Shown here: positions 18,388 to 39,354 of the stretch, one piece after another
Layout of the letters: each line of letters starts with the position of its first letter
How positions within the stretch are numbered: the first letter of the stretch is position 1
Origin: Acidobacteriota bacterium
GTDB lineage: Bacteria; Acidobacteriota; Vicinamibacteria; Vicinamibacterales; UBA2999
Direction: 5' to 3'
Assembly (NCBI GenBank): GCA_016871195.1
Contig: VFZN01000019.1
Location: 1 to 51,965 of the forward strand
Length of the DNA: 51,965 nt
Notes under the pieces: generated by a model
The model's database searches: none
What the model was told of the DNA's origin: nothing
The model's input: only the letters and a program-made list of their open reading frames with translations
Position numbers and translations under genes: made by a program

Positions 18388-19434
18388 TCAGCGTCCGTGT
18401 CGGGTCGCCTGCCGGCGCTGCCGGAAATACTCGACCTGCCACCGTTGCACGTTGCGGTTATGCTCGTCGAGGGTATCGGCGAACACATGCGACCCGTCGT
18501 TCCTGCTGACGAAATACAGGTGGGACACATCGGCCGGCCGCACGGCCGCCTGCAGGGACGCCAGCCCCGGGGCCGCGATGGGCCCGGGCGGCAGCCCCCG
18601 ATAGCGATAGGTGTTGTAGGGCGAGTCGATCTGCAGGTCGGCGCGCGTTAGGTTGCCCGTGTAGGTGCCGCGCTGCAGGAGGGCGTAAATGACCGTGGGG
18701 TCGGCCTGCATGCCCATGCCGATCGTCCACCGGTTGCGGTAGACGGCTGCCACGAGCGGCCGCTCGTCGGCCCGGGCGGTTTCCTTCTCGACGAGCGAGG
18801 CCAGCGTCACGATCTCCCGCGTGGTGACGCCCGCGCGGCGCACCGCGTCGAACAGCGGCCCGTCGTAGTGCTGGCGGAACAGCGTCACCATGCGGACGAT
18901 GAGGTCGTTGGCTGACGCGCGTCGCGGAAGGGCGTAGGTGTCGGGAAACAGATAGCCCTCGAGGTCGGTGGCGGCGGGGTCGAGGTCGCTGATGAAGGCG
19001 GTGGCGCGTGCGGCCTCAAGAAAATCCTCGGCCGTGCCGAAGCCCTGCGCACGGAAGTGCTGCGCCATCTCGCGCAGCGTGAGGCCCTCGCGGAAGGTGA
19101 TGGTGCGCGCAAACACCTCGCCGCGTGCCAGGTGACCGACGACCTCGCGCGCGCTCAGGGGCCGCGTGAACTGATAGTCGCCTGCCTGCAGCACCCGTGC
19201 CTGCCCGGTGCGCCAGAGTGCCAGGCGGAAGACCAGGGGATGGGATACCACTCCTGCGCGGGCCAGCTGGCCGCCAATGGCCGACGTACCCGTGCCCGGG
19301 GCGATCTCGACGAACTGCTCGGGGCCCGCATAGCCCTGAAACGGCGTGTCGACGGTGCGCAGCGCGGCGGCCACACCGCCCCCCGCGGTCACGGCCAGTA
19401 CGATCAACAGTCCCACCCAGCGACGCATCGGCAT
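18388..19434 (-). CDS. mltG: Endolytic peptidoglycan transglycosylase MltG
   Basis: Cleaves nascent glycan strands at the inner membrane and so sets chain length. A single N-terminal transmembrane helix (WVGLLIVLAVTAGGGVAAAL) anchors a periplasmic YceG-like domain. The catalytic Glu lies in LASLVEKETARADERP, and GMGMQADPTVIYAL and SPYNTYRYRGLPPGPIAAPG are family hallmarks, as is the LysM-like N-terminal part (AGDYQFTRPLSAREVVGHLA). Length (348) is normal. It starts 3 bp after the ruvX stop, so ruvX-mltG form an operon, a pairing common in bacteria. An alternative ATG two codons on (19428) is equally possible. Confidence 0.93.
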   Translation of the reverse strand: MPMRRWVGLLIVLAVTAGGGVAAALRTVDTPFQGYAGPEQFVEIAPGTGTSAIGGQLARAGVVSHPLVFRLALWRTGQARVLQAGDYQFTRPLSAREVVGHLARGEVFARTITFREGLTLREMAQHFRAQGFGTAEDFLEAARATAFISDLDPAATDLEGYLFPDTYALPRRASANDLIVRMVTLFRQHYDGPLFDAVRRAGVTTREIVTLASLVEKETARADERPLVAAVYRNRWTIGMGMQADPTVIYALLQRGTYTGNLTRADLQIDSPYNTYRYRGLPPGPIAAPGLASLQAAVRPADVSHLYFVSRNDGSHVFADTLDEHNRNVQRWQVEYFRQRRQATRHGR

Positions 19435-19437
19435 TCC

Positions 19438-19887
19438 TCACGAACGGTGATCGAGAAAATCCTGCAGGATGATGGCGGCGGCCTCGGCATCGATGCGCGT
19501 CTTGCGGCGTTTCCAGTCGCGCTCGCCTCGCGCGATCAATCGGGCGTCGGCCTCGTAGCTCGAGAGCCGTTCGTCCTGCAGGGTGACGGGCACCGACACC
19601 GCTGCGCCCAGTGCCTCGGCGAAGGCCTCGGTCGGCACGGTCATGTGCGTGGCACTGCCGTCGAGGCGGCGCGGCCAGCCAATCACTACGGCCTGCAGCC
19701 CGTCATCGTCGCGCTGCAGATCGTGGATGATGCCTGCGACCAGCGCCACCGACGTCGGGGTATCGATCGGGCGCGGCACTATCTTCCACGGAGAGGCGAG
19801 CATGCCAGAGGCGTCACTCAGCGCCAGCCCGAGGCGACGCTCGCCATAGTCGATTCCAAGGACCCGCACGGCGCTGCCCGGTGACAC
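19438..19887 (-). CDS. ruvX: Putative Holliday junction resolvase / pre-16S rRNA nuclease YqgF
   Basis: RNase H-fold nuclease; in E. coli YqgF finishes 16S rRNA 5' maturation, and it is also called RuvX for resolvase-like activity. The 149-residue protein has VLGIDYGERRLGLALSD (first catalytic Asp), VVIGWPRRLDGS, the LQDERLSSYEAD strand-helix and the last Asp in IDAEAAAIILQDFLD. The start is GTG at 19887, giving a 6-residue leader before VLGIDYG. It is upstream of mltG in one transcriptional unit and 10 bp downstream of a small membrane-protein gene. Confidence 0.92.
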   Translation of the reverse strand: MSPGSAVRVLGIDYGERRLGLALSDASGMLASPWKIVPRPIDTPTSVALVAGIIHDLQRDDDGLQAVVIGWPRRLDGSATHMTVPTEAFAEALGAAVSVPVTLQDERLSSYEADARLIARGERDWKRRKTRIDAEAAAIILQDFLDHRS

Positions 19888-19897
19888 GCGTCAGGGG

Positions 19898-20212
19898 TCA
19901 GGCGGGGGGCAGGCCCGCCAGCAGGCCCCGCAGGTAGACGGCCACCGCGGCGGCGACCACAAAAATGCCGAGCCCCCGCATCAGCGCCGCCCCGGGCCCG
20001 AACGCCCGCTGCATCACCTGCTGCAGCGGCTGCAGCGCCAGGAACACCAGTGCGTAGCTGGCGCCCATGCCACCGGGAATGCCGAAGCGGGGCACCAGCA
20101 GCGCAGGCAGCGCGGTCAGCACGAAGGTGCTGCCGAGCCAGGCGGCCAGCATCAGGCCATACAGTTCGCCGCGGGTCACAAGCGACGGAGCCGGTGACGG
20201 AGAGGAGTCCAT
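19898..20212 (-). CDS. Small unrecognised membrane protein
   Basis: A 104-residue protein with three likely transmembrane segments: LYGLMLAAWLGSTFVLTALP, YALVFLALQPLQQVM and GLGIFVVAAAVAVYLRGLLA. The N-terminus (MDSSPSPAPSLVTRGE) is polar. I do not recognise the family. It is the first gene of the ruvX-mltG unit, 10 bp upstream of ruvX, so a link with envelope or DNA processing is possible only by position. Codon use resembles its neighbours, and the ATG at 20212 is the only sensible start. Confidence 0.6.
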   Translation of the reverse strand: MDSSPSPAPSLVTRGELYGLMLAAWLGSTFVLTALPALLVPRFGIPGGMGASYALVFLALQPLQQVMQRAFGPGAALMRGLGIFVVAAAVAVYLRGLLAGLPPA

Positions 20213-20236
20213 GCCGCGATCTTAGCAATTGCGTGG

Positions 20237-20264
20237 TTGCAGCGGAGGATGTTTCCTCTAGAAT
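20237..20264 (+). promoter_or_regulatory. Promoter of the S41 peptidase homologue
   Basis: TTGCAG (20237-20242), a 16-bp spacer and TAGAAT (20259-20264). The -10 ends 11 nt before ATG 20276 and no Shine-Dalgarno is present, so the leader would be only a few bases. Confidence 0.5.
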
Positions 20265-20275
20265 GATGACATCCC

Positions 20276-21463
20276 ATGGTGACGCGCCGCAGTCGTGCTC
20301 TCGTGCTGGTGCTGTCGGTGCCAGTGGCCCTCTTCTTCGTCGTGGGCGGCTGGCTCGCCCGCACGATGTCGGCCCAGGGGCCCTCGACCTACGAGCACCT
20401 CCGTATCTTCGAAGATGTGGTGTCGCTGATCTCGCGCAGCTATGTCGAGCAGGTCGATGTCGACCGCGTCATGCACGGCGCGATGCACGGTCTGGCGGAC
20501 GGCCTCGATCCCGACTCGGCGTATCTCGACAAGACGCAGGTGGCGGCCTTTCAGCGCAAGGCGGCGCCGCCAGCCGGAGACACCGGCCTCGAATTGACGC
20601 GCCAGTACTACCTGCGGGTGATTGCGGCGCTCGACGGCTCGCCCGCCGCCCAGGCCGGCCTGCAACCGGGCGATTACATCCGCGCCATCGACGGCCAGTC
20701 AACGCGTGACACCTCGGTCTTCGAGGGCATGCGCCTGCTGCGCGGTGCGCCCGGTTCGACGGTGCGGCTCACGGTGCTGCGCGGCACGGCAGTCGACCCG
20801 CATGACGTGGTGCTGACCCACGCGGCCCTGAAGGCCCCGGCCGTCTCGAGCCGCCTCGCCGCACCCGGAGCGGGCCTGATCCGGATTCCCGGGTTCACCG
20901 CCGACACCGCCGCGCAGGTGACCCGCGAGGTCACGACACTGCGCAAGGCCGGGGCCACGCGACTGCTCGTCGACCTGCGCGGCACCGCGACCGGTGACCT
21001 CGACGCCGCACTGCCCGTCGCACGCCTCTTCGTGCGCAGCGGCACGCTCAGCTATCGGCAGGAACGCGACGCCGAGAAGGTGGCCGTCGCCGCCGCCGCT
21101 GGCGACGGCAGCATCAGCCTGCCCGTGGTGCTGATGACCGACAACGGCACATCGGGTGCGGCCGAGGTGTTTGCGGCCGCGCTGCACGGCAACACACGCG
21201 CGTCGCTGGTCGGCGAACGCACGCTGGGACGCGCCGCGCGACAGAAGCTCGTAGCGCTGCCCGACGGCAGCGGACTGCTGCTCACCTATCAGCGCTATCT
21301 CATGCCGGGTGGCGCGGCCATCAGCCCCCGCGGCCTCTCGCCCGACGTGGCCGTCGCGCAACCCACGCGGGAGTTCGGGGTGGCACCGCCAGCGGGCGAT
21401 CCCATCCTCGACAAGGCCCTGACCGCAGAGCCGCCTGCACCGCCTGCGTCACCGGGCGCGTGA
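20276..21463 (+). CDS. S41 (CtpA-like) peptidase homologue with replaced active-site residues
   Basis: A 395-residue protein with an N-terminal anchor (LVLVLSVPVALFFVVGGWLA), a tail-specific-protease N-terminal region (FEDVVSLISRSYVEQVDVDR), a PDZ domain (about residues 105-175, with GSPAAQAGLQPGDYIRAIDG) and an S41 core. In CtpA/Prc the nucleophile is the first Ser of S-A-S-E and the general base is the Lys of TFGKG, 25 residues on. Here the aligned positions are Gly294 (TSGAAEVFAAAL) and Arg319 (ERTLGRAARQK). Ser293 and Lys324 are near but not at the canonical positions. The fold seems intact (LLVDLRG, SGLLLTYQRYLMPGG, PRGLSPDV), so it may be a non-catalytic scaffold or an enzyme with a shifted dyad. 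Starts without a Shine-Dalgarno. Confidence 0.85.
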   Translation: MVTRRSRALVLVLSVPVALFFVVGGWLARTMSAQGPSTYEHLRIFEDVVSLISRSYVEQVDVDRVMHGAMHGLADGLDPDSAYLDKTQVAAFQRKAAPPAGDTGLELTRQYYLRVIAALDGSPAAQAGLQPGDYIRAIDGQSTRDTSVFEGMRLLRGAPGSTVRLTVLRGTAVDPHDVVLTHAALKAPAVSSRLAAPGAGLIRIPGFTADTAAQVTREVTTLRKAGATRLLVDLRGTATGDLDAALPVARLFVRSGTLSYRQERDAEKVAVAAAAGDGSISLPVVLMTDNGTSGAAEVFAAALHGNTRASLVGERTLGRAARQKLVALPDGSGLLLTYQRYLMPGGAAISPRGLSPDVAVAQPTREFGVAPPAGDPILDKALTAEPPAPPASPGA

Positions 21464-21502: not shown

Positions 21503-21579
21503 AGGCGCGTAGCTCAGTTGGTTAGAGCGCCTGCTTGACACGCAGGAGGTCGGCAGTTCGAGTCTGCCCGTGCCTACCA
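21503..21579 (+). tRNA. tRNA-Val (GAC)
   Basis: The 77-nt cloverleaf folds cleanly: acceptor AGGCGCG/CGTGCCT, D-arm GCTC...GAGC, anticodon stem CCTGC/GCAGG with loop TTGACAC (anticodon GAC), a T-arm GGCAG-TTCGAGT-CTGCC, and an encoded CCA. It is 34 bp upstream of thrS, on the same strand. Confidence 0.97.
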
Positions 21580-21613: not shown

Positions 21614-23545
21614 ATGAGTCAGGTCACCATCACCCTTCCCGATGGCTCTCAGAAGCAGGTCGCGGCCGGCGCGCCCGTGCGCGCCGTGGCCGAGATGATT
21701 TCGCCCCGACTGGCCGAGGCGGCGTGTGTCGCGTGGGTCGGCGACCGCCTGGTCGACCTCACCCATCCGCTGACCGACGATGCCACGGTCCGGTTCGTGA
21801 CGACCAAGAGCCCCGAAGCCCTCGAGGTGTATCGGCACTCGACGGCGCACCTGCTGGCTGCTGCGGTGACGGCCCTCTTCCCCGACGTGCAGTGCGGCAT
21901 CGGTCCCCCGACTGACGAGGGCTTCTTCTACGACTTCGTCGTCAGTCGTCCGTTTGTGCCCGAAGACCTGGCGGCCATCGAGGCCAAGATGCGCGAGCTC
22001 GCCGACAACGATTTCGTCTACGAACGCCAGGCGTGGCCGCGCGACGAGGCCATCGCGTTCTTCCGCCAGCGCGGCGAACCGCTCAAGGTGCAGCTCATCA
22101 AAGAGAAGACGGTCGGGCAGTCGCACGTGTCGTGCTACACCATCCGCGACCGCGAGACCTTCCTCGACTTCTGCGTAGGGCCGCATGTGCCATCGACCGG
22201 CCGGCTCAAGGCCTTCAAGCTAACGGCCACGTCGAACGCGTACTGGAAGGGCGACGCGAAGAACCAGCCGATGCAGCGCATCTACGGCACGGCGTTCTTC
22301 ACCCAGAAGGAACTCGACGACCACTTGGCGCGCATTGAAGAAGCCAAACGCCGCGACCACCGCAAGCTCGGCAAGGAACTCGGGCTGTTCACGTTCCACC
22401 CGTGGGCGCCGGGCTCGACCTTCTGGCTGGCCAAGGGGGCCACGCTCTACAACACGCTGTCCGACTACATGCGCGACGTGCTCTTCCCCGCCGGCTACGT
22501 CGAGGTGAAGACGCCCATTGTGTTCAACAAGGCCCTGTGGGAAACCTCGGGGCACTGGACGCACTACCGCGAGAACATGTTCCTCGTCGAATCGCGCGAC
22601 GGCGAGGAGATGGGGCTCAAGGCCATGAACTGCCCCGGCCACATGCTCGTGTTCGGGGCCGAGAAGCGCAGCTACCGCGACCTGCCGCTGCGCTATCACG
22701 AGCAGACGCCGCTCCACCGCAACGAGGCCTCGGGCACGCTGTCGGGGCTGACGCGCGTGCGCCAGTTCTCGCAGGACGATGCACACTGCTTTGTGGCGGA
22801 AGATCAGATTGCCTCGGAAGTGGAAGCCCTGCTGAAGCTGATTCAGCGCGTGTACGGCGACTTCGGGCTGCCCTACTCGGCCAAACTGTCGACCCGTCCG
22901 GTCGACTTCCTGGGTGACGTGGTCACGTGGAATCATGCCGAGGCCTCGCTGAAGGCCGCGCTCGAGCAGGCCGGTCAGGCCTACGTCGTCAACGAGGGCG
23001 ACGGCGCGTTCTACGGGCCGAAGATCGACTTCGACGTCACCGACGCGCTGGGCCGCAAGTGGCAGTGCGCGACGATTCAGCTGGACTATCAGCTGCCGCA
23101 GCGCTTCGACCTCACCTATGTCGGGGCCGACAATGCCGAGCACCGGCCGGTGGTGATTCACCGGGCGATTTTCGGCAGCTTCGAGCGGTTCATGGCGATT
23201 CTCATCGAGCACTTCGCCGGGGCATTTCCGCTGTGGCTGGCGCCGGTGCAGGCCGCCGTGCTGCCCATTGCCGACCGGCACCTCGACTATGCCCGTCAGG
23301 TGCAGGCGACCCTCGCGGCCGCCGGGCTGCGGGCGACGGTGGACGACCGTCAGGAGAAGGTCAATCTGAAGATTCGCGAGGCGCAGCTGCAGAAGGTGCC
23401 CTACATGCTGGTGGTCGGCGACCGCGAGGCGGCCGACGGGGCGGTGGCGGTGCGCAGCCGGGCCCAGGGCGACCTCGGAGCGAGGGCCGTGGCTTCGTTT
23501 GTGCACGAAGCCCTTGCCGAGGTCGACCGTAAGCAGATATCCTAA
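21614..23545 (+). CDS. thrS: Threonyl-tRNA synthetase
   Basis: Charges tRNA(Thr). All domains are present in 643 residues: TGS ([19 protein letters not shown]), the editing domain ([20 protein letters not shown], and the later [18 protein letters not shown]), the class II catalytic core with [10 protein letters not shown] (zinc-binding Cys), [36 protein letters not shown] and [19 protein letters not shown], and an anticodon-binding domain ending at [15 protein letters not shown]. The ATG lacks a good Shine-Dalgarno. It begins a run of translation genes (infC, rpmI, rplT, pheS, pheT). No T-box or thrS operator-like anticodon mimic was recognised in the 34 bp upstream. Confidence 0.96.
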
Positions 23546-38997: not shown

Positions 38998-39354
38998 GGG
39001 GGCGACTTGGCTTCGACGGGGGATCGGGATCGTGGAGCGCGTGCCGAGGATTCCATCTCCGCCTCGTTAAACTGCGGTGGAAACCAACGTAACTGCGGAA
39101 GCAGACTACGCTCTCGCTGCTTAATAACCAGTGAGCGGTGGCCCTGAAAGTGCCTGCGATTCAGGAATCACCGTCATTTAGTGGGCTGGTCCTCTGGTGC
39201 CGCGCTGACGCCGGGGGATGAGATCTATCAGGGCTAGCGGCCGGGGCGTTTGGCTCCGTTCAGAACCGGTCGCAACATCAGAATGGAGACACGCACGTAG
39301 GGTTCTGCGACGACGGTTTCTCGGACGCGGGTTCAACTCCCGCCGCCTCCACCA
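38998..39354 (+). ncRNA. ssrA: Transfer-messenger RNA
   Basis: One-piece tmRNA that rescues stalled ribosomes. The 5' GGGGGCGACTTGGCTTCGAC and 3' GTTCAACTCCCGCCGCCTCC plus encoded ACCA form the tRNA-like domain (acceptor GGGGGCG/CGCCTCC). The tag frame ends in ADYALAA before tandem TAA-TAA (39122-39127); taking GCG at 39074 as the resume codon gives the 16-residue tag AVETNVTAEADYALAA. Resume position is inferred. Pseudoknot-like GC stems fill the interior. Its 3' end abuts a tyrosine-recombinase remnant, as expected when an element integrates into ssrA. Confidence 0.95.

Follow-up and report, generated by a model that had tools for sequence, protein, structure and literature searches.

The window (the whole stretch of Acidobacteriota DNA analyzed here, 51,965 nucleotides) carries at 20276..21463 on the + strand a ctpA homolog whose 395-aa product is built like an S41A protease and has Gly and Arg at the positions of the catalytic Ser and Lys. 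Is this still an enzyme, with an atypical active site, or a gene in decay, or a pseudoprotease kept for something other than cleavage? The open reading frame, Pfam, NCBIfam and phmmer searches, an AlphaFold2 model and fold matches all point to a dead CtpA.

Domain organization and catalytic positions

In Pfam the protein matches Peptidase_S41 (PF03572; E 8e-32; score 110 bits, cut-off 24). A PDZ domain (PDZ_6, PF17820; E 1.6e-13) precedes this core, and the N-terminus has a CtpB_N-like match (1e-6). The best NCBIfam match is prc (TIGR00225), at 196.9 bits, which is below the curated cut-off of 218.6. The N-termini of orthologs make the GTG at 20279 a possible true start instead. A scan for promoters and terminators found none.

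The AlphaFold2 model (105 homologs; mean pLDDT 93.4) comprises an N-terminal helix, two dimerization-region helices, the PDZ domain, a cap and the core. The helix, residues 4-33 (20285..20374, + strand), is the predicted membrane anchor, and its Gly24 is near-invariant (119 of 126 non-redundant homologs). Next comes a dimerization-like region, residues 36-93 (20381..20554, + strand), recognized from the CtpB_N-like match, helices 36-55 and 62-77, and regional identity. The PDZ domain, identified by PDZ_6 and a fold match, spans residues ~96-187 (20561..20836, + strand). Pfam and the model thus agree with the earlier note, which had described an S41/CtpA-like protein with its PDZ domain and N-terminal anchor intact. 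Structural matching with VIA-align gave Helicobacter pylori CtpA (Z 37), Pseudomonas aeruginosa CtpA in its inactive protomer (Z 36), resting CtpB (Z 35) and active CtpB (Z 25); a likeness of the predicted model to the resting state is suggestive only.

Searching the solved structures with phmmer retrieved P. aeruginosa CtpA (7rpq, E 1e-52), and the structure of its S302A mutant (7rqh) departs from the wild-type sequence at exactly the column of Gly294 (21155..21157, + strand). Homolog alignments likewise put Gly294 at the position of the Ser nucleophile, residue 302 in P. aeruginosa, and Arg319 (21230..21232, + strand) at that of the Lys general base, Lys327. This confirms a first reading of the DNA, in which these two residues, 25 apart, had been placed at the Ser and Lys positions. 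The third triad residue, Gln323 (21242..21244, + strand), is conserved: it aligns with Gln331 and is Q in 112 of the 132 homologs described below. Asp80 (20513..20515, + strand; LDPDSAYL against LDPHSAYL in the phmmer alignment) occupies the place of P. aeruginosa His84, the third residue of the catalytic network and proposed acid (PMC11021448). The activity of P. aeruginosa CtpA is abolished by S302A and also by K327A alone (PMC11021448). Since either change suffices there and both positions are changed here, the sequence makes it nearly certain that the window protein has lost proteolysis.

Distribution and evolution of the dyad loss

Is the loss a peculiarity of one genome? Eighteen orthologs on genome contigs share 54-65% identity with the window protein over its full length; Arg319 is common to them, and position 294 is G, S or N. 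When the class (Vicinamibacteria) was searched, 148 of 149 genomes gave a match, which in about 139 of them reached E 1e-43 or better, a threshold that we set and that is stronger than typical paralog matches; one further genome, G008, in which ctpA is broken up by masked bases, was counted beyond these. Two records titled Cyanobacteria and Acidimicrobiia (L008 and L012) contain orthologs 60-61% identical in the same gene order, and their titles are probably wrong.

A phylum-wide search and the fetched loci together yielded 132 Acidobacteriota homologs with the site covered, where 'phylum-wide' means most sampled lineages, families with weak matches (E 1e-28 to 1e-45, in large part likely paralogs) being only partly covered. 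The Ser/Lys pair is absent from 130 of them: 84 of 84 in the class and 46 of 48 sampled outside it. The earlier note had looked to Vicinamibacteria for conservation of the Gly/Arg replacement; non-catalytic pairs are indeed kept throughout that class, and it is the limit to the class that does not stand. Orthologs with a normal Ser and Lys, which had been named as evidence against a pseudoprotease, number two (L137 and L145, both of family f39), none of them in the class. Both loci have envC before the gene and yibQ after it, and a separate active CTP paralog is also present. As a control, the same kind of alignment showed Ser-Lys-Gln in all 25 other CTP paralogs sampled from the phylum; the window's own genome encodes two further S41 proteins with Ser and Lys.

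Of the 132 homologs, 100 have G at position 294, 10 have C, 8 have S, 6 have N and 6 have Q; at position 319, 76 have R, 3 have K and the remainder have a hydrophobic, acidic or other residue (L, A, M, E, V and others). Because the replacements vary at both positions, the site has not been turned into a single new chemistry. Could the protein still be an enzyme, using a shifted pair such as Ser293 (21152..21154, + strand) and Lys324, as had been suggested from the DNA, or the Cys294/Arg319 and Ser294/Arg319 variants? Ser294 with Arg319 does occur in five homologs and Cys294 with Arg319 in ten, all of one family, and Thr292, Glu297 and Gln323 are strongly conserved. The Ser293/Lys324 pair, however, is found in only 29 of 132; Ser293 is replaced by Ala in 64, Lys324 is R, E, T or Q in about 58, and no nucleophile/base pair is common to the family. 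The model adds that Lys324, which directly follows the conserved Gln on a beta strand, should point its side chain away from the site, and loss of the Lys alone (K327A) kills P. aeruginosa CtpA (PMC11021448). Conservation thus rejects the shifted dyad, and we regard any surviving enzyme activity of this kind as very improbable. The family with conserved Cys294 and Arg319 (f14, loci L071-L080; motifs TVCPGE and GRRTAGRTGRP) has mltG as the following gene, in the same direction.

A tree built without the catalytic columns groups the dead homologs with f39 in a single clade (SH-aLRT 100, stem 0.76), separate from the active Acidobacteriota paralogs and from the CtpA proteins of P. aeruginosa and H. 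pylori. Family f39 is nested within this clade, and monophyly of the members without the dyad is weakly rejected (p-AU 0.039), so that repeated loss of the dyad, or one reversal, is probably likelier than a single loss. A single loss that left f39 as a surviving active sister is weakly rejected by the same test.

The disappearance of both catalytic residues, and of the neighboring envC in the window's genome, could also be read as decay of a gene whose function was lost recently. Against this, the frame is open over 395 aa and 18 orthologs match it over their full length at the identities given above, the same loss is class-wide, and dN/dS in close pairs is 0.05-0.4, indicating purifying selection. 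Selection and conservation rule out a pseudogene, as the earlier note had maintained, and we give decay practically no chance. Strips around the old active site are still well conserved in the dead homologs, as judged by regional identity, a degree of conservation that may go beyond what a mere scaffold needs.

Compared with the active paralogs, it is the dimerization region that has gained in relative constraint (relative identity ~1.02 against 0.74). This fits a docking role and also bears on the chief rival to it, namely that the protein is a dead partner that pairs through its N-terminal region with an active CTP paralog (for example the 538-aa protein L001, which has Ser and Lys), as inactive protomer, activator or competitive inhibitor. 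There is a precedent in the P. aeruginosa CtpA-LbcA complex, where one protomer per dimer is inactive (PMC11021448), and the same genomes do hold active paralogs. These paralogs, however, fall in a well-separated clade, are only ~30% identical and have long C-terminal extensions, and matching dimerization surfaces are putative. Such a partnership therefore seems rather unlikely.

Gene neighborhood and the loss of EnvC

The neighborhood was surveyed over 134 loci by flanking-gene clustering and profile searches. In 75 of these an EnvC-like gene lies directly upstream of dead ctpA, often with a 4-bp overlap. Its product has a coiled coil and a LytM domain and EnvC as best NCBIfam model, at a score below the cut-off; in many of these neighbors the zinc-ligand positions are degenerate. 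The gene yibQ (Polysacc_deac_2) lies downstream in several loci, mltG and ruvX are divergent neighbors in many, and in some the next gene is PBP1A-like. P. aeruginosa has an envC-ctpA-PA5135(yibQ) operon, whose CtpA degrades cell-wall hydrolases (PMC12569750); this order recurs in relatives of the window gene, whereas the window itself is without envC. Directly upstream of envC, many loci (L054, L061, L062, L120 and others) have a gene for a ~700-aa protein predicted to be a type I phosphodiesterase/nucleotide pyrophosphatase.

On the - strand the window has mltG, encoding an endolytic transglycosylase (18388..19434; TIGR00247, 8e-65, and context), ruvX/yqgF (19438..19887; RuvX, 3e-31), both conserved neighbors, and a gene for a 104-aa membrane protein (19898..20212) with no Pfam or NCBIfam match. 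A 63-bp intergenic stretch (20213..20275) separates the last of these from ctpA. Comparison with relatives marks it as a clean junction at the site of the missing envC: the close relatives L004 and L005 have envC upstream of dead ctpA, and in L004 it sits between ctpA and the homolog of the 104-aa protein gene. Downstream, on the + strand, are tRNA-Val(gac) (21503..21579) and thrS (21614..23545), a conserved neighbor identified from its flanking-gene cluster and sequence. Further along the same strand, at 38998-39354, is a tmRNA gene with the tag AEADYALAA.

Has envC merely moved? Neither EnvC nor the FtsX extracellular domain was found in the window's genome, which is 98% complete and keeps its Amidase_3 proteins. 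The presence of EnvC elsewhere in this genome was rejected: it encodes only two M23 proteins, both with intact zinc ligands. EnvC and the FtsX extracellular domain have disappeared jointly from about a third of the class, the window's genome included: 94 genomes have both, 4 only EnvC, 5 only FtsX and 46 neither (co-occurrence, Fisher p 6e-28, kinship between genomes ignored). Dead CtpA is present in at least 42 of the 46 with neither. An obligate EnvC partner is accordingly rejected, and because dead CtpA remains in genomes without EnvC and FtsX, EnvC is at most one partner.

Proposed function and relation to known systems

What might a dead CtpA do? Since the fold, the PDZ domain, the dimerization region and the selection on the gene are all retained, binding appears to be what is kept, and the presence of cell-wall genes as neighbors (EnvC, MltG, YibQ, PBP1A-like) argues, if indirectly, for a role in the cell wall. 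From neighbors, conservation and relatives we infer, with a probability of roughly 55%, that the envC-linked periplasmic CtpA of Acidobacteriota is a conserved pseudoprotease, an anchored PDZ docking protein or scaffold for cell-wall hydrolases or regulators that does no cleavage. The N-terminal helix would hold it in the inner membrane and the N-terminal region would mediate dimerization; the PDZ domain and the retained, inert substrate groove would bind peptidoglycan hydrolases, or activators of these, by their C-terminal tails, so that the bound proteins are positioned, held or shielded instead of degraded. EnvC may be one partner and cannot be the sole one; this best-supported candidate does not apply in the window's genome, because EnvC and FtsX are absent there.

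A ligand-binding module that acts outside cell-wall biology is a further alternative, suggested by analogy with IRBP/RBP3. This animal retinoid carrier, whose S41-like modules are non-proteolytic, is among the structural matches (Z ~19) and shows that the fold can serve purposes other than proteolysis. CtpA proteins nevertheless match far better, the window protein retains its PDZ domain and dimerization region, and the neighbors are cell-wall genes; such a role is improbable.

We return, then, to a docking protein. Its pseudoprotease character, which the earlier note had proposed, is strongly supported by the non-catalytic pairs in orthologs, purifying selection and a high-confidence model with the CtpA fold; the shifted dyad that the note offered beside it fell away, and the phylum-wide extent and the linkage to EnvC lie beyond what it saw. 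Our wider proposal is tentative: much of the Acidobacteriota may have turned CtpA into a non-proteolytic docking protein beside a degenerate LytM EnvC, one that outlives the lost FtsEX-EnvC and would have its own role in envelope growth or division.

Active CtpA-type proteases control growth through degradation of peptidoglycan hydrolases. That a dead form should be so widespread and conserved, amid the same genes, implies that CtpA acts in part by binding, not cutting, a function that would be masked in model organisms by protease activity. Dead CtpA would thus be a separation-of-function variant made by nature, and would form a family of bacterial pseudoproteases. In the literature searched, a dead envC-linked CtpA is nowhere described. 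Non-proteolytic S41-like proteins are already known (IRBP), and bacterial pseudoproteases exist in other folds, for example CspC/CspA of Clostridioides difficile.

How does the window protein compare with known systems? EnvC, an amidase activator with a degenerate LytM domain, has a different fold and is gone from the window's genome. The IRBP/RBP3 modules share an S41-like fold, are distant and are without PDZ. Bacillus subtilis CtpB (4c2c-4c2h) has its fold in common with the model; unlike the window protein, it is an active sporulation protease, with Ser309-Lys334-Gln338. The best structural match, H. pylori CtpA (9ku0, 9jr1), is 28% identical and, again unlike the window protein, keeps Ser300-Lys325-Gln329, as indicated by the alignment and by a mutant entry named for the residues (9ku3). 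P. aeruginosa CtpA (S41A; 7rpq, 8sxe), which works with LbcA, has the same domain order and 33% identity over 344 residues. Its Ser302, Lys327 and His84 are Gly294, Arg319 and Asp80 in the window protein, in which a C-terminal dimerization region giving a hexamer is putative: its C-terminus is short, and the model aligns as far as residue 430 of P. aeruginosa CtpA.
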